Origin: Acidobacteriota bacterium
GTDB taxonomy: Bacteria; Acidobacteriota; Terriglobia; Bryobacterales; UBA6623
NCBI GenBank assembly: GCA_016125275.1
Contig: WGMB01000003.1
Span: 1,054,001-1,118,000 of the forward strand
Direction: 5' to 3'
Length of the DNA stretch: 64,000 nt
Positions 32,865 through 41,191 of this stretch are shown here, one piece after another. Position 1 is the stretch's first letter. Each line of letters opens with the position of its first letter. The notes below the pieces were generated by a model, which worked only from the letters and a program-made list of their open reading frames with translations, had not been told where the DNA came from and searched no databases. The translations under genes were made by a program, and so were the position numbers.

Positions 32865-32940
32865 CCGAGCCCCGCGACGAACAGCGGCCGCCCCGGGTCG
32901 CCGCGCTCCCGTGTTACGACCGCTATACTTGGAAGCGAAC

Positions 32941-33960
32941 GTGCAAGTCGACGCAGCCACCCGCCGCCGCCGGCGCAAGCTGGCTCTGGAGCGTTCGCTC
33001 CGGGAGCTTCGTATGCTTTGGCGGGGCCTGACCGACGTCGATCGGCCGGTGCTGGCGCAGATCATCCCGACGCGCCGCTGCAATATCGCCTGCGCTTACT
33101 GCAACGAGTACGATCACGTCTCCAAGCCGGTTCCCACCGAGGAGATGCTGCGGCGGATCGACCACTTGGCCAAGCTGGGCGTCTCGATCGTCACGTTCTC
33201 GGGCGGCGAGCCGCTGCTGCATCCGGAGCTCGACGAGCTGATCCGCCGCATCCGCGAGCGGGGCATGATCGCCAGCCTGATCACCAACGGCTACTTCATG
33301 GTCCCCGAGCGCATCCAGCGGCTCAACGACGCGGGGCTCGAGTACGTACAGATCTCGATCGACAACATCAAGCCGGACGACGTTTCGAAGAAGAGCCTGA
33401 AGGTGCTCGACAAAAAACTCGTTTGGATGGCGGAGCACGCCGACTTCCACGTGAACATCAACTCAGTGGTGGGCGGCGGCGTGGACAACCCCGAGGACGC
33501 CTGGGTGATCGCGCAGCGGGCGGTGGAACTGGGCTTCACCTCCACGGTCGGCATCATCCACGACGGCTCCGGCCAGCTCAAGCCGCTCAGCGGCCCCGAG
33601 CGCTCGGTCTTCGACCGCATCAAGTCCCTGAGCAAGAAGTCCTACGCCCGCTTGGACTTCTTCCAGGAGAACATCGCCAACGCCAAGCCCAATGACTGGC
33701 GCTGCCGCGCCGGGGCTCGCTACCTCTACATCTGCGAGGACGGCTTGGTGCACTACTGCTCCCAGCAGCGCGGCGCGCCCGGCACTCCTCTGGTGGAGTA
33801 CACTCTCGAGGACGTTCGGCGGGCCTACCGCACCGAGAAGTCCTGCGCCCCGATGTGCACCGTCTCCTGTGTGCACAAGGTGTCAGCGTTCGACTTTTTT
33901 CGGGGACGCCAGACGCCGCCCACGCCGGGCGAATTGGTCTCCCTGGCGTCGGGAGACTGA
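32941..33960 (+). CDS. Radical SAM protein with SPASM-like C-terminal cysteines
   Basis: The 339-residue protein has the [4Fe-4S] motif CNIACAYC (C-x3-C-x2-C at about residues 47-54), the SGGEP SAM-binding motif (FSGGEPLLHPEL) and a TIM-barrel body. The C-terminal region has Cys residues in WRCRAGARYLYICEDGLVHYCS and CAPMCTVSC, so one or two further clusters are likely. The substrate is unknown; some such proteins modify peptides or lipids. TATACT (32924-32929) lies 11 nt before the GTG at 32941. A GTG at 32911 would add ten residues, but the -10-like hexamer lies inside that extension. The pilin pair follows 220 bp downstream, with no proof of a link. Confidence 0.85.
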   Translation: MQVDAATRRRRRKLALERSLRELRMLWRGLTDVDRPVLAQIIPTRRCNIACAYCNEYDHVSKPVPTEEMLRRIDHLAKLGVSIVTFSGGEPLLHPELDELIRRIRERGMIASLITNGYFMVPERIQRLNDAGLEYVQISIDNIKPDDVSKKSLKVLDKKLVWMAEHADFHVNINSVVGGGVDNPEDAWVIAQRAVELGFTSTVGIIHDGSGQLKPLSGPERSVFDRIKSLSKKSYARLDFFQENIANAKPNDWRCRAGARYLYICEDGLVHYCSQQRGAPGTPLVEYTLEDVRRAYRTEKSCAPMCTVSCVHKVSAFDFFRGRQTPPTPGELVSLASGD

Positions 33961-34018: not shown

Positions 34019-34181
34019 AGTACTGTCGTCCCACCCGGTCATACAGCAATATACCCCGGGAAAAGCGGCGCTCCTTCTCATATTCCGGGCTCTCCCCCTC
34101 ATCGGATGATCAGGGTGTCAGAAGCGGTTGGAGAGACCGATTCGGCGCTCCGAAAGTACAGAGAGATCAGGGAGAGAAATC
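34019..34181 (+). promoter_or_regulatory. Duplicated upstream region of Flp pilin 1
   Basis: A 25-bp element beginning AGTACT and containing TCCCACC and TCATA starts here. A matching element (about 20 of 25 bases) starts at 34478. Both lie exactly 163 bp before their pilin ATG. The stretch just before the ATG (from about 34105) is also nearly the same in both copies and contains the small palindrome CCGA-T-TCGG. The leader ends in GGGAGAG, a ribosome-binding site. Confidence 0.6.
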
Positions 34182-34367
34182 ATGGAAAAGATCAACAAGT
34201 TGATTGTTCGTTTGCTGAACGACGAGAAGGGCCAGGACATGGTCGAGTACGCGTTGCTGGCCGGCTTCATCGCCGTCGCCGCCGGCGCCATTCTGCCGAC
34301 CGTGTCGAGCAACATCTCGGTCATCTTCTCGAAGATGAGCTCGGTCGTCGCCGACGCCGCCAGCTAG
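34182..34367 (+). CDS. Flp/Fap-type pilin, copy 1
   Basis: The 61-residue prepilin has the short leader of Flp pilins ending in Gly (NDEKG), followed by QDMVEYALLAGFIAVAAGAIL. The Glu-5 and Tyr-6 after the predicted cleavage site and the hydrophobic helix are the Flp signature. The prepilin peptidase would cut after that Gly and the Tad machinery would assemble the subunits into thin pili. No Tad/Cpa gene is in this window, so the machinery must be elsewhere. The copy at 34641 differs at only a few residues (for example Val to Ile and Ser-Ser to Ser-Asp). The ATG is preceded by GGGAGAG. Confidence 0.93.
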   Translation: MEKINKLIVRLLNDEKGQDMVEYALLAGFIAVAAGAILPTVSSNISVIFSKMSSVVADAAS

Positions 34368-34396
34368 TCCGACGCCACAAGCGCGAAAGCAGCAAG

Positions 34397-34420
34397 GGGC
34401 GGCCTTCGGGTCGCCCTTTC
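34397..34420 (+). terminator. Intrinsic terminator after pilin 1
   Basis: An 8-bp GC-rich stem with one G-T pair closes a TTCG tetraloop (34405-34408) and is followed by CTTTCTCG-type pyrimidines. It lies about 30 nt after the first pilin stop and would separate or weaken read-through into the second pilin. Confidence 0.65.
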
Positions 34421-34477
34421 TCGTTTGCGGGCCGCCAGTCCAACGCGCTGCGAGAGTTCGGGCGGTCGGGGCAAAAC

Positions 34478-34640
34478 AGTACTTTGGTCCCACCTGATCA
34501 TAGATGTTTGCACTGCAGCGATTCCAGGCCTCTCCCGCATATTCGGGGGATCTTTTGACACCGGATGATAGAGGTGTCAGAAGCGGTTGGAGAGAACCGA
34601 TTTCGGCGCTTCGCTAGTGAGAAACGAGGGAGGAAAAGTC
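34478..34640 (+). promoter_or_regulatory. Duplicated upstream region of Flp pilin 2
   Basis: This is the second copy of the region at 34019-34181, with the AGTACT/TCCCACC/TCATA element at 34478-34502 again 163 bp before the ATG. The leader has the matching CCGA-TT-TCGG palindrome and ends in GGGAGGA, a strong ribosome-binding site. The central part between element and leader has diverged. Confidence 0.6.
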
Positions 34641-34826
34641 ATGGAAAAGATCAACAAGCTGATCATCCGTTTGCTGAACGACGAGAAGGGCCAGGATATG
34701 GTCGAGTACGCGCTGCTGGCCGGTTTCGTGGCGGTCGCCGCGGGCGCGATCCTGCCGACCGTGTCGGACAACATCTCGGTCATCTTCTCGAAGATGAGCT
34801 CGGTCGTCGCTGACGCCGCCAGCTAG
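34641..34826 (+). CDS. Flp/Fap-type pilin, copy 2
   Basis: The 61-residue protein is a near-identical tandem copy of the pilin at 34182, with the same cleavage context (EKG before QDMVEYALLAGF) and the same C-terminus (FSKMSSVVADAAS). Duplication included the upstream region. The ribosome-binding site GGGAGG is stronger than in copy 1 and the gene is followed by a very stable terminator. The two copies may be expressed at different levels or times, or may be mixed in one filament; neither can be decided from sequence. Confidence 0.93.
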   Translation: MEKINKLIIRLLNDEKGQDMVEYALLAGFVAVAAGAILPTVSDNISVIFSKMSSVVADAAS

Positions 34827-34926: not shown

Positions 34927-36270
34927 TCAGCGTCGGATCCAGTCGCAGCCGCCTTCGGTTCCGCAGTAGTAGATCCGCAGCTCCGCCGGAGCCTTGCGGC
35001 GAGCCCAGTCGCCGCCGTTGACGAACAGCGCCGTCGCCCAGGCTTCGCTGTCGAGAGCCGACTCCGACAGCACCGACACGGCAAGAGTTCCCTGCGCCGG
35101 CTGTCCCGTGCGCGGGTCGAAGATGTGGCTGTAGACCTTGCCGTCCACCTCGAAGAACTTTTCGTAGGAGCCGGAGGTCGACATCGAAGCGTCCCGTAGG
35201 CGCACGGTCGTGGCCACCTCGTCGGCATCCTTCGGATTGCGGATCTCGACCGGCCAGCCCTCGGGTTCATCCGGCGGCGCACCGATGGCGTAGAGGCTGC
35301 TGGTGCCGGCGCTGATGAAGCCTGATCCGATGCCGTAGCCCTTGAGCAGCGCCGCGATGCGCTCTACGGCATACCCCTTACCAATTCCGCCAGGGTCGAG
35401 CTTCAGTCCATCGACGTCGAAGCGCACTTGGCGCGCCGCCGGGTCGACGTGCAGGTGTCGGTAGCCCGTCGATTCGAGCGCTCGCCGCAGCCTCAGGCCG
35501 CCGGGCAACGCCCCGGCCCCGCGGAAGAAGCCCCAGGCTTCGACCAAGCTGCCCACGGTTACGTCGAACGCCCCTTCGCTCTGCCGGCTGTAGCGCAGGC
35601 AATCCTCGAGCAGCGCCACGCTCTCCTCGGAGACCGTCACGGGGCCCGCTGCGGCTTCGGCATTGAGGCGGCTCCATTCGCTTTCCGGCCGGTAGTTGCT
35701 GATCAGACGATCGATGCGGCGCGCCTCCTCGAAGGCGGCCAGGGTCGCCGAAGCCAAGGCCCCGCGGCGCGGGCCGTAGAGCGCAATGCGGAGCTCGCTG
35801 CCCATGACTGAGGCGCTGGCCTCGTAGCGCTCCAAGGGCTCCTCGGCGGCCTTCGCCCGGGCGGCCGGGAAGGCGAGCGCGCAGGCTAGCAGGATTGCCG
35901 CCAACGGCTCCTTGCGGCGCTTCTCGATGCGCTTGAGCAGCGTCTCGATACGCTCGGCGTTCTGCGCGCCGCGGTCCACGCGAAACTCGAGCTGCGGCAC
36001 GCGCCGGATGTCCAAGCGGTCGGCCAGCAGGCTCCTCAAGTAGCCCGAGGCGCGCCGGAGCGGGGCGAGAAAGGCTTCCTCGTTCTCGATGGCTTCGTCC
36101 GGGCCTTCCGACGGGACCACGAGCGCCCGAGCATAGCTGTAGTCCGGCGCAAGCTCCACCTTCGTGATGTGGACCGAAGGCAGGTTCGGGTCATCGACCT
36201 CAGACTCGAGAATCTCGATCAGATCCTGGCGAATCTGCTCGGCGGCGCGCGCGCGGCGTAGTCCTTTCAT
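34927..36270 (-). CDS. rbfA-apbE: RbfA joined in frame to ApbE (FAD:protein FMN transferase)
   Basis: The open frame encodes 447 residues with two unrelated parts. Residues 1-120 are RbfA, the 30S maturation factor (RAAEQIRQDLIEILESEV, VHITKVELAPDYSYARALV, RVPQLEFRVD), in its normal operon place after ylxP. Residues 121-142 are hydrophobic like a signal peptide (EPLAAILLACALAFPAARAKA). Residues 143-447 are ApbE: FMN-transfer motif LDPGGIGKGYAVER, HIFDPRTGQP and a metal-binding segment SEAWATALFV that has Glu where Asp is usual. ApbE attaches FMN to periplasmic flavoproteins. RbfA is cytoplasmic and ApbE exported, so a TTG at 35904 with AAGGAG three bases upstream may start ApbE separately. 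No stop codon separates the two. Confidence 0.85.
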   Translation of the reverse strand: MKGLRRARAAEQIRQDLIEILESEVDDPNLPSVHITKVELAPDYSYARALVVPSEGPDEAIENEEAFLAPLRRASGYLRSLLADRLDIRRVPQLEFRVDRGAQNAERIETLLKRIEKRRKEPLAAILLACALAFPAARAKAAEEPLERYEASASVMGSELRIALYGPRRGALASATLAAFEEARRIDRLISNYRPESEWSRLNAEAAAGPVTVSEESVALLEDCLRYSRQSEGAFDVTVGSLVEAWGFFRGAGALPGGLRLRRALESTGYRHLHVDPAARQVRFDVDGLKLDPGGIGKGYAVERIAALLKGYGIGSGFISAGTSSLYAIGAPPDEPEGWPVEIRNPKDADEVATTVRLRDASMSTSGSYEKFFEVDGKVYSHIFDPRTGQPAQGTLAVSVLSESALDSEAWATALFVNGGDWARRKAPAELRIYYCGTEGGCDWIRR

Positions 36271-36276
36271 CGGTCT

Positions 36277-36561
36277 TCAGAATAGCTCGATGGACGACTC
36301 GGCGAGGTCCCCGCCCAGCATCTCGGCGGCGTCGGCTTCCACCCGCCGCAGGATCTCCTCCACGGTTCCCTGCGAGCCAGCCACGGCGGCGACGCCGATC
36401 GTGGCCAGCGTCCAGGAGGTCGGGGCCTCGACCTCCGCGACGGCGACGTTGAAGCGGTTGCGGAGGCGCTGTTTGAGGGCGCGCACCACCTGACGGCGGT
36501 CCTTGAGGGACCGCGCGTCAGCGATGCGCAATTCGAGAGTAAGAAGGCCTACGACAGCCAA
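36277..36561 (-). CDS. ylxP: DUF503 protein YlxP
   Basis: The 94-residue protein has the DUF503 pattern: VVGLLTLELRIADARSLKDRRQVVRALKQRLRNRFNVAVAEVE. Members are encoded between infB and rbfA in many bacteria and are thought to act in ribosome assembly or RNA handling; the function is not settled. It starts with TTG at 36561. It is 11 bp after infB and 6 bp before rbfA, so it belongs to the rimP operon. No better start is visible. Confidence 0.9.
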   Translation of the reverse strand: MAVVGLLTLELRIADARSLKDRRQVVRALKQRLRNRFNVAVAEVEAPTSWTLATIGVAAVAGSQGTVEEILRRVEADAAEMLGGDLAESSIELF

Positions 36562-36572
36562 GAGCTCTCAGC

Positions 36573-39500
36573 TCAGGACTTGAGCTTGAGCTCCTGAGCG
36601 ACTTCGGTGCGGCGGAACGCCTCGATCACGTCGCCCTGCTTGATGTCGTTGTAGTTGTGCAGGGTCATGCCGCACTCCTGACCGGCGCGGACTTCACTGG
36701 CGTCGTCCTTGAAGCGCTTGAGGGTGTTCAAGCGGCCCGTGTAGACGACCGTGTTGTCGCGCAGCAGGCGAGCGTGGCTGTCGCGGCTGACCTTGCCTTC
36801 CTCGACCAAGCAGCCGGCCACCGTGCCGACCTTGGAGACGTTGAAGACTTCCTGGACCTTGGCACGGCCCTCGAACTCTTCCTTGATCACCGGCGCGAGC
36901 AATCCGGCCAGGGCGGCCTTGAGCTCGTCCTCGAGCTCGTAGATCACCGTATGGAGCCGGATGTCGATCTTCTCGCGCTCGGCCAGCGCCGCGGCGGTCC
37001 GTTCGGGACGGACGTTGAAGCCGTAGATGATCGCCTCGGAGGCGATCGCCAACAGCACGTCCGACTCCGAGATCGCGCCGACGCCTGTGTGGATGAGCTG
37101 TACCTCGACTTCGTCGTTGCGCAGCTTGCCCAAGGTCTCCTTGAGCACGTCCAGGGAACCCTGCACGTCGCACTTGAGCACGATCGGCAGTTCCTTGACC
37201 TCGCCGCGCCGCAGCAGATCCTGGAACTGCTCGAGCGACTGCCGCGAAGACTTCGCCAGCGTCTGCTCGCGCTCCTTGTCCTCGCGGAACTCGACGATCT
37301 TGCGGGCGCGATCGGTGTCGGTCACCACCAGGAGTTGGTCGCCCGGTTGCGGCAGACCCTCCAAACCAAGCACCAGCGCGGCCGAGGAGGGCTCGGCTTC
37401 CTTGATCTTGGCGCCCTTGTCGTCAATCAGGGCGCGCACGCGGCCGAACACCGAGCCGACCACGAAGTAGTCGCCTACGCGCAGGGTGCCGTTCTGCACG
37501 ATGACGGTCGCCACCGGGCCCTGGCCGCGATCGAGCTTGGCTTCGAGCACGGTGCCCACGGCGGTTCGATTCGGATTCGCCGTCAGCTCGCGCATGTCTG
37601 CGACCAGCAGAACCATCTCGAGCAGGTCTTCGATGCCCTGGCCGGTCAGCGCCGACACCGGAACCATCGGGGTCTCGCCACCCCACTCTTCCGGCATCAG
37701 GCCGCGGTCGGAGAGCTGCTGCTTCACCCGATCCGGCTGGGCGTTGTTCTTGTCGATCTTGTTGACGGCCACGATCAGCGGCACGTTCGCCGCCTTGGCG
37801 TGGTCGATGGCTTCGAGCGTCTGGGGCATCACGCCGTCGTCGGCGGCGACCACCAGGATGACCACGTCGGTCACCTTGGCGCCCTGGGCGCGCATCCGCG
37901 TGAACGCCTCGTGGCCAGGCGTGTCGATGAAGACGATCTTGCGATCGTTGTGCCACACCTCGGAGGCGCCGATGGCCTGGGTGATCCCGCCCGCCTCGCG
38001 GTCGGCGATGTGCGTCTCGCGAATAGCGTCGAGCAGAGAGGTCTTGCCGTGGTCGACGTGACCCATCACGGTCACCACCGGCGGCCGCGGCAGCAACTGG
38101 CCCGGATCCTCGGCCAAGTCGATATTGAGGGAGCTCTCCTCCTCGAAGGTGATCTCCTCGACCTGCGCGCTGAAGACCCTGGAGAGATCGCGAATCATCT
38201 CCATGTCGAGCGTCTGGTTGATCGTCGCAAAGACGCCGCGCTCGAACAGGACCTTGATGATCAGGTTCGCCTTGATGCCGAGCTTCTCGGCCAATTCCTT
38301 GACCGTGGCGCCTTCGCCGATGGCGATCTGCGCATTCTGAGCCTTCGGCGGACCGGCCTTGGCGCGCGCCGCGGCCTGCTTCTGCATGAACCGCGTCTCG
38401 CGCTCGGCCTCAGGATCTCGCTTGACGCGCGGGCGAGCCATCGGCCGCGGCCGACGGCTGTCGGGACGACCGGGAGCGCCGGGCGTGATGCCCGGGCGGC
38501 CGGGTGTCGCCGGAGCGCCCGGACGCATGCCGGGGCGCGGCGTAGGCATGCCCGGGACCGGGCCTTCCGGCCGCGGACCTTGGTAGATGGGCTTGCCTGG
38601 CGTAATCGTGGGCCGCGGACGCGGACCGGGGGCCGAGACTCCCGGCTGCTGAGCCGCTCGCGGACCTCCGGCGCGGTGCGGCGCGGGACGTTGAGGCACC
38701 GGCGGACGCACCGGCGCGCCGGGCTGCGGCGCAGCGGCGGGCGGCCTGGAGATTCTGGCTTCCGGACGGCCGGTCGGGACCGAAGGCACCGAGCGGCGGA
38801 CCGGTTCCGCCGGCGTCACGCGCTCATGCAGCGGCTTGGGCAAGCGCGGCTTGGGAGCCGGTTGCGGAGCGCCGGGAGCGGCGGGCCGAGCCGCCGGCGG
38901 CGGCGTGGAAGTGGCAGCGGTCCGCGCCACGGGAGCCGAGGGCGGCGCCAGCGGACGCGCCGGCTGCGCCGGAGCAGCGGCCGGAGGCGGCGGAACGGGA
39001 CGTGCGGGCGCGGCCGGAGGCGGCGTGGGCGTGGTCTGTCGGGCCTCGGGCCGGGCGGAGACAGGCGGAGCCGAGGGCGGCGGCGGCGCCGGAGGCGCGG
39101 TCCGCACGGGAGCGGTCGGAGACAGCGGCGGCGCCGGACGAGCCGGCGCGGGCGGCGGAGCCGCGCGATGCTGAGGAGCGGGAGGTTCCGCCCGTTCCGT
39201 CGTCGCAGGCGGCGCCTGCCGAGCAACAGGCGGACGCAACGGTCCGCCGCCGCCCTTCAAGGGCGGACGGAAGGGCGCCGGACGCAGAGCGACTCCGGCG
39301 GGTGTCTTGGGGCGGCGCTGAATCGTGGGAACCGCCTCCGACGTAGGCGTCGGGAGCTCGGTCTTCACGGTTCGCGGCCGCTCGCGTTGCGGCAGTTCCA
39401 GTTCGGGCAAAGGTTTGGAGTCCTGTTTCGATTCGCCGCCAAGGCGCTGCTTGATCTTCTCGACCGTACGCGGATCGACCGCACTCGAATGCGTCTTCTT

Positions 39501-39584
39501 CCCCGACACGCCCAGCTCGGGCAGGAGATCGAGGATTTCGTGCGCCTTGACTTCCAGGTCTCTCGCTAACTCGTTGATTCGAAT
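36573..39584 (-). CDS. infB: Translation initiation factor IF-2, probable ATT start
   Basis: The protein of about 1003 residues has an IF2 N-terminal domain ([20 protein letters not shown]), a Pro/Ala-rich linker to about residue 370, and a second IF2_N segment ([24 protein letters not shown]). The GTPase has G1 GHVDHGKTS near residue 507, DTPGHE and NKIDK, followed by the C-terminal fMet-tRNA-binding domains. IF-2 brings initiator tRNA to the 30S subunit. The frame has no ATG, GTG or TTG between an in-frame stop near 39650 and the GTG at 39509, which would delete the conserved N-terminus. ATT at 39584, 8 nt after AGGAG (39593-39597), restores it; ACG at 39587 is an alternative. Confidence 0.9.
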
Positions 39585-39667: not shown

Positions 39668-41191
39668 CTAATCCCGGTCTTCCAAATCGTCCGCGTCCGG
39701 GTCGTCGTCCGCGTCCTTGTCCTCGTCCGGCCGCTGCAAAGAAGATGAGCGCAGTTTCATGTTATCAAAATCCTCAAGCGGGATCTCTTCATCGTCATCT
39801 TCCTCTTCCACGGCGCCCTCTTCGGGCAGGCCCGGCAGAACCATCGGACCGCGCCTTTCCGGCGCGCCTTCGCCGTCGGCCGCAGCCTGCTGGGCGCCTT
39901 CCGCCTCGCCCAACTCGCCGGCCTGATCGAACTGCGAGTAGTAGCTATTGACGGCGAGTTGGATCTGCTCGAGCACGCCGGCGTTCATACCGGGGATGGC
40001 GTCGAGCTGCTCCGGCGTCATGTCCGCCAGCGCTTCCACCGTCGTCGAACCGGCTTCCAGCAGCCGATCCACCACGAACTCGGCCAAGCCGTGATCGATC
40101 AAGACGCTGACCGGCGTACCCGAACCCGAGATGGCCTCCATGGCCGCCTCGACCTCCTGCCGCTTCTCGTCTTCGCTCTTGATGTCGATCCGCCAGCCCA
40201 TCAACTTGGCGGCCAACCGCACGTTCTGTCCCTTCTTGCCGATCGCCAGGGAAAGCTGCATCTCGTCGACAACGACTTCGAGATGGCGGCCCACCGGGTC
40301 GATGATCGTGACGCGGCTGATCCGGGCCGGGCTCAGGGCACGCGTTGCGAGCTCGACCGGGTCCTCGGAGAACTCGATGATGTCGATCTTCTCGCCGCGC
40401 AGCTCACGGATGATGGACTGCACGCGCATGCCCTTCATGCCGACGCAGGCGCCGACCGGATCGACGTCCCGATCGGTCGAGACCACCGCGATCTTGGTCC
40501 GCTCGCCGGCTTCGCGCGCACAAGCGGCGATCCGCACGGTGCCGTCATAAATTTCCGGCACCTCCTGCTCGAACAGGCGCTTAACCAGCTCCTCGCTGGC
40601 GCGCGACACGATCACGGCCGGGCCACGGCCCGCCTTTTCGATCGTCTTGATGATTACGCGAACGCGGTCGCCGGGCGAAAAGCTCTCCAGCCGGGACTGC
40701 TCGCGGCGGGGCAGCCGCGCCTCGGTCCGGCCGAGGTCGACGATCAGGTCCGGGCCCTCGCTACGCTTGACGCCACAGGTCTCGAGCTGCCCCAGGCGGT
40801 CCTGGAACTCGGCGCAGATCGTCTCGCGCTCGGCTTCGCGAATCTTCTGGAAGATGACCTGCTTGGCCATCTGCGCCGAGATGCGGCCGAGCCCCTCGGT
40901 CGGCTTCAAAATGCGGATGCGGTCGCCGATCTGGGCGTTCTTGTCGAGCTTGCGGGCGGCGTTGATGCTGATCTCGCGCGCCGGGTTGGCCACCAGATCG
41001 GTCACGGTCATGATGGCGTAGACCTCGACGTTGCCGGTCTCTTGATTGAGCTCGGCGACCAGGTCTTCGTTGGACTTGTAGTACTTGCGCGCCGCGACCA
41101 GGATGGCGTCCTTGACCGCTTCCATGACGATGCCCGCGTCGATGTTCTTCAGCCGACTCAGGTCTTCGATTTGCGAATAAATGCCAGCCAT
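39668..41191 (-). CDS. nusA: Transcription termination/antitermination factor NusA
   Basis: The 507-residue protein has the N-terminal RNA-polymerase-binding domain (residues 1-130), an S1 domain (about 135-200: GPDLIVDLGRTEARLPRREQ) and two KH domains (DPVGACVGMKGMRVQSIIREL, EMQLSLAIGKKGQNVRLAAKLMGW). A helical region with a helix-hairpin-helix-like part (LADMTPEQLDAIPGMNAGVLEQI) and a very acidic tail (EEEDDDEEI, DEDKDADDDPDADDLEDRD) complete it. NusA controls pausing, termination and antitermination. It lies 19 bp after rimP in the usual order. The acidic tail is longer than in E. coli. Confidence 0.96.
   Translation of the reverse strand: MAGIYSQIEDLSRLKNIDAGIVMEAVKDAILVAARKYYKSNEDLVAELNQETGNVEVYAIMTVTDLVANPAREISINAARKLDKNAQIGDRIRILKPTEGLGRISAQMAKQVIFQKIREAERETICAEFQDRLGQLETCGVKRSEGPDLIVDLGRTEARLPRREQSRLESFSPGDRVRVIIKTIEKAGRGPAVIVSRASEELVKRLFEQEVPEIYDGTVRIAACAREAGERTKIAVVSTDRDVDPVGACVGMKGMRVQSIIRELRGEKIDIIEFSEDPVELATRALSPARISRVTIIDPVGRHLEVVVDEMQLSLAIGKKGQNVRLAAKLMGWRIDIKSEDEKRQEVEAAMEAISGSGTPVSVLIDHGLAEFVVDRLLEAGSTTVEALADMTPEQLDAIPGMNAGVLEQIQLAVNSYYSQFDQAGELGEAEGAQQAAADGEGAPERRGPMVLPGLPEEGAVEEEDDDEEIPLEDFDNMKLRSSSLQRPDEDKDADDDPDADDLEDRD

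Follow-up and report, generated by a model that had tools for sequence, protein, structure and literature searches.

The window, by which we mean the whole 64,000-nt stretch of DNA that was analysed, carries on its minus strand an open reading frame (34927..36270) that runs for 447 codons from an ATG start to a TGA stop without a break and in which rbfA and apbE are fused. Its N-terminal part is an RbfA domain (residues 5–112, 35935..36258 on the minus strand; PF02033, 81.7 bits against a cut-off of 34.7) which also scores above the TIGR00082 model (62.9 bits, cut-off 51.15) and matches solved RbfA chains, for example 8bxa, 1jos and 7afl. The C-terminal part is an ApbE domain (residues 156–424, 34999..35805 on the minus strand; PF02424, 244.6 bits, cut-off 25.6) with matches to solved FAD:protein FMN transferases; with the narrower NCBIfam model PRK10461.1 it reaches 146 bits, below the cut-off of 498 set for that model. 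One chain that pairs a ribosome-assembly factor of the cytoplasm with an enzyme of the periplasm is unusual and would be miscalled by annotation pipelines as one of its two parts only, and no earlier report of an RbfA–ApbE fusion was found in the literature searched. An earlier note on this DNA had described RbfA and ApbE as joined in frame over a signal-peptide-like segment, and the unbroken frame, the Pfam domains and the make-up of the junction all bear this description out.

The upstream neighbours on the same strand are ylxP (DUF503, 36277..36561; PF04456, 91.6 bits) and then infB, encoding IF-2 (36573..39509, taken from the ORF list), the C-terminal part of which served as the query for the InfB tree discussed below, and the ORF at 39668–41191, further upstream, is presumably nusA. 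The gene order in the window is thus infB–ylxP–rbfA, with rbfA being the first part of the fused ORF, and this RbfA is the sole one found in the source genome (7.55 Mb, 20 contigs). Searches for Rfam families and tRNAs returned none in the 64,000-nt window. Just downstream of the fused gene, at 34106–34813 on the plus strand, there are two short ORFs of similar sequence (GKDQQ.DH/CSFAERREGPG) suggestive of a small gene that has been duplicated and that, read in another frame, is perhaps Flp-pilin-like.

Distribution and origin of the fusion

The fusion was searched for across the phylum Acidobacteriota, where many of the compared genomes look like draft assemblies. The earlier note had proposed looking in relatives for a stop between the two parts, and had considered the case of separate rbfA and apbE genes in all close relatives; most close relatives were found to carry the fusion. 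The fused frame is open in 15 of the 18 genomes of the window's family, the window included, covering five of its six genera, and one further copy in the family is interrupted by a contig end. A second family of the same order has the fusion in both of its genomes (two genera; proteins of 440 and 436 aa), giving a total of 17 fused genomes in seven genera, in nearly all of which, as far as examined, RbfA is single-copy. An assembly artefact, or a stop lost recently in one strain, is thereby rendered vanishingly improbable, as the same frame recurs in 17 genomes of seven genera, with matches within the family that are 47–54% identical to the window's protein, and is under purifying selection throughout; this conservation of the in-frame fusion rules out sequencing error and chance as well.

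That selection can be seen among close relatives within genus g6, where dN/dS is 0.15–0.26 for RbfA and 0.07–0.14 for ApbE, with 0.12–0.52 for the junction, a value calculated from few sites. The divergence of RbfA relative to InfB has a median of 2.06 in fused and 2.26 in separate genes, so that RbfA evolves no faster when fused. Both domains are under purifying selection, and decay of RbfA in the fused genes is ruled out by the dN/dS values together with the relative rates.

Separate genes are found in a third family, recognised as the Bryobacteraceae by its named member L089, where about 130 sampled genomes contained no fused rbfA and no rbfA frame above ~250 aa. Here apbE usually lies directly after rbfA, often starting at the rbfA stop, which is typically located 50–250 nt before the ApbE domain, and apbE opens with a signal-like segment of ordinary type. 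The closest ApbE orthologs from other orders of the class were examined at 12 loci, none of which has rbfA next to apbE, indicating that the two genes became neighbours in this order and were fused within it. A third arrangement is seen in genus g4, the sixth genus of the window's family (L016–L018), where apbE comes immediately after ylxP, its start overlapping the ylxP stop; rbfA is missing exactly between the two, and no RbfA was detected in the three genomes (93–99% complete) by either the Pfam model or the window's RbfA as query. This genus has lost the RbfA part and kept apbE, the product of which continues with its own signal peptide, and the RbfA domain is therefore dispensable there. 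As the clade has all three states (separate, fused and RbfA lost), it permits a direct comparison of the steps by which two genes become fused.

The surroundings of the fused gene also vary, since infB and ylxP were not found within ~1.5 kb upstream of it in genera g3 and g6. A convergent radical SAM gene (32911–33960 on the plus strand of the window, and in L004 and L008) is retained on the downstream side in three genera, even though the search upstream of the fused gene gave neither infB nor ylxP in two of them.

In the InfB tree, which leaves out g3 and g6 because infB was not found in the fetched 1.5 kb upstream, the window's family and the second fused family come together (96/91), apart from the separate forms. 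The RbfA tree, which is unrooted, has one branch splitting fused from separate forms with a support of 94, and the ApbE tree places the second fused family beside the separate forms, with a single fused clade not being rejected (AU p 0.40); these are trees of short proteins and have weak support in places. Taken alone, the ApbE tree could be read as two separate fusions or as a fission in the family with separate genes; both readings were set aside, given the uncertain root of that tree and the preference of the InfB tree for one fusion. As the InfB tree unites the two fused families, one old fusion is the simplest reading, and most likely a single event in a common ancestor of the two families joined an rbfA–apbE pair in an infB–ylxP–rbfA operon.

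Other long RbfA frames in the phylum were examined and discarded. Those of G438 and G415 apparently run on through infB in GC-rich DNA, and that of G331 has its extra length upstream of the RbfA domain. A different, real RbfA fusion occurs in G432 (L123:1447-2913 on the minus strand, 489 aa), in which RbfA is followed by a linker of near-identical repeats and a DHH/DHHA1 protein.

The segment joining the two domains

The residues between the RbfA and ApbE domains fall into a basic part LLKRIEKRRKEP, a hydrophobic core LAAILLACALAFPAA and a part made of small residues RAKAAEEPLERYE, so that the junction of the window's protein reads KRIEKRRKEP-LAAILLACALAFPAA-RAKAAEE, with basic, hydrophobic and small-residue parts as in a signal peptide. 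The basic tail KRIEKRRK (residues 113–120, 35911..35934 on the minus strand) is both the end of the RbfA helix and the positive flank of the signal segment. The core (residues 123–137, 35860..35904 on the minus strand) is the most hydrophobic 15-mer of the protein, with a Kyte–Doolittle (KD) mean of 2.40 against 1.33 elsewhere, and the AxA motifs behind it define a putative signal peptidase I region with the sequence ARAKA followed by A (35845..35865 on the minus strand), with a predicted cut after residue 139 or 141.

The same properties recur across the fused proteins, where junction hydrophobicity and AxA sites were called with crude scans. In all 17 the most hydrophobic 15-mer of the entire chain is at the junction (KD 1.55–2.40, elsewhere at most 1.57), and the net charge of the 15 residues on the N-terminal side of the core is positive in 15, the others being L011 with 0 and L012 with –1. 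Identity between genera is only 33% at the junction, compared with 39% in RbfA and 53% in ApbE, and the property has thus been preserved though the sequence changes, although some of the hydrophobicity could be a holdover from an ancestral signal peptide. The motif scan found AxA-type sites at the junction in 14 of the 17, and the remaining three (L003, L059 and L061) have no canonical site under a strict rule, so that cleavage may not be universal. A lipoprotein signal was also considered as a general feature and rejected, as Cys is present in the hydrophobic segment of some fused proteins only; it is absent in L005, L007, L009–L014, L015 and L019, and a lipobox is therefore not general.

The AlphaFold model of the fused protein (mean pLDDT 86.9), for which the alignment rows covered ApbE only and the RbfA part had none, has two separate confident domains. 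The RbfA-like domain is followed by a short hydrophobic helix (residues 124–132), a disordered stretch at 135–141 with pLDDT under 50, and a confident ApbE domain from about residue 147.

Predicted topology and fate of the chain

We propose, with a probability of roughly two in three, that the gene encodes one polypeptide in which a cytoplasmic RbfA is followed by an internal Sec signal sequence and a periplasmic ApbE, the two ends probably being separated by signal peptidase; the topology, the cleavage and both activities are predictions from the sequence. The single polypeptide would cross the membrane, with the N-terminal RbfA domain emerging first and folding in the cytoplasm. Its basic C-terminal tail would act as the positive flank of a signal sequence that dates from the time when ApbE was a protein of its own, and this internal signal would engage the Sec machinery for export of ApbE to the periplasm. 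Signal peptidase I would then, in most lineages, probably cut after the AxA-like site to give a periplasmic ApbE, and RbfA, retaining a hydrophobic C-terminal tail, would stay membrane-bound or be trimmed free later. The earlier note had called the fusion topologically strange, an objection that is weakened in two ways: an N-terminal domain inside, a basic flank, a hydrophobic segment and a C-terminal domain outside are a legal single-pass orientation, and a cut by signal peptidase would separate the two parts.

The earlier note had itself suggested that the TTG at 35904 could start ApbE, in which case one frame with two starts, at this or a similar codon, would yield a free RbfA-like product alongside a distinct pre-ApbE that carries its own signal peptide, an arrangement we regard as improbable. 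The TTG (35904–35902 on the minus strand) has AAGGAG at 35913–35908, its AGGAG standing 3 nt upstream, and in unfused relatives apbE begins right at the end of rbfA, so that an old start could persist. A spacing of just 3 nt between a Shine–Dalgarno sequence and a start codon is too short, however, and a signal peptide starting at 35904 would lack a basic N-region. Initiation of ApbE within the frame should also have kept a start codon in place, and none is conserved at the junction across the 17 fused genes: the window's TTG is private to the window's gene, in L015 the stretch between 35 codons ahead of the hydrophobic core and 5 codons beyond it contains no in-frame ATG, GTG or TTG, in L014 and L059 the nearest such codon is at least 31 codons upstream of the core, and a GTG inside the core in close relatives of L014 is GTA in L014. 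This rules out the TTG as a general mechanism, the absence of Shine–Dalgarno sites alone not having been counted as evidence against an internal start. The note had left a choice between one frame making two proteins and a lost stop, of which the lost stop agrees with the ancestral layout of two adjacent genes, whereas the making of two proteins through an internal TTG start is not supported.

Internal initiation is less likely than a lasting membrane anchor, as is a cytoplasmic two-domain enzyme, which we consider the least plausible of the three. A stable, uncleaved anchor would tether RbfA on the inner face of the membrane and ApbE on the outer face, equivalent to the lipid anchor of classical ApbE. 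Such an arrangement, unlikely in our estimation, is favoured by the membrane anchoring of classical ApbE (PMC12052999) and by the three proteins that have no AxA site, but the uncharged runs of 12–24 residues and their moderate hydrophobicity are closer to cleavable signals than to long anchors, the other 14 proteins have AxA-type sites, and a tethered sole RbfA would need to serve all 30S subunits. For the junction to be a mere linker, with ApbE working in the cytoplasm, there are precedents in the cytosolic ApbE of Klebsiella and in the trypanosomatid ApbE fused to its target enzyme (PMC12052999), yet none of the fused proteins has a segment more hydrophobic than its junction, and ordinary signal-like segments are present at the N-terminus of ApbE both in the separate orthologs and in the ApbE-only genus.

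If the chain is cut, as in the preferred reading of a composite precursor, it would be a clean natural case of signal peptidase separating two unrelated proteins, and if it is not, ribosome assembly would rely on a membrane-tethered factor. We suggest tentatively, as a possibility that we take seriously without favouring it, that the one RbfA of the cell is made as part of a precursor spanning the membrane, of which it forms the cytoplasmic end, and that 30S assembly is thereby tied physically to the membrane or has its timing set by protein export and signal peptidase. A sole RbfA on such a precursor would constitute a link between ribosome maturation and the cell envelope of a kind that is not known to have been described before.

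Known systems and the ApbE subfamily

Like a stand-alone RbfA, the fused form has a full domain above curated cut-offs, occurs in one copy in nearly all fused genomes and, in the window, has the infB–ylxP–rbfA order, but it is not free, since it continues into a signal-like segment and then a complete enzyme, with the basic tail doubling as a signal flank. The closest working model is the fbcH precursor of Bradyrhizobium for cytochrome b/c1, in which one ORF gives two proteins around an internal signal sequence that are separated by signal peptidase. The RbfA–ApbE fusion, with two domains in one ORF around a predicted internal signal, would be a composite precursor whose mechanism recalls that of fbcH; the two parts of fbcH are members of a single membrane complex, whereas here one is a cytoplasmic ribosome factor and the cleavage is putative.

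A review of ApbE names cytosolic ApbEs and, in trypanosomatids, a fusion with fumarate reductase, but no RbfA fusion (PMC12052999), and in the part of the text searched a survey of flavinylation does not mention fusions (PMC8238504). In the trypanosomatids, too, ApbE forms one domain of a longer chain, but there it is N-terminal, intracellular and joined to its own substrate, whereas here it is C-terminal, placed behind a signal segment and joined to an unrelated ribosome factor.

Compared with exported ApbEs, the fused form also has a whole domain with a signal-like segment in front and the SHxxDPxTG motif, present as SHIFDPRTG (YSHIFDPRTG in the alignment with solved ApbEs), the conserved His of which is His382, invariant in A2. 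It differs from them in having a signal without a free N-terminus, a Glu for Asp and no adjacent FMN_bind target. The Asp/Thr pair of ApbE is what we take to be the Mg2+ ligands; at this putative site the window's protein retains Thr and has the conservative replacement of Asp by Glu (SEAWAT; EAWAT compared with DALAT), and an altered loop reads SAGTSSLY instead of GGNI, both features being common to the unfused orthologs. The search for an FMN_bind target adjacent to the fused gene gave none, and a second, canonical ApbE of the source genome lies ~2.8 kb from an FMN_bind gene. In other orders of the class (L126, L128, L129, L133 and L134) the nearest ApbE orthologs adjoin a GFO/IDH/MocA oxidoreductase, which has a Tat signal by Pfam in L126 and L129, and this oxidoreductase could be a partner or target of the ApbE subfamily.
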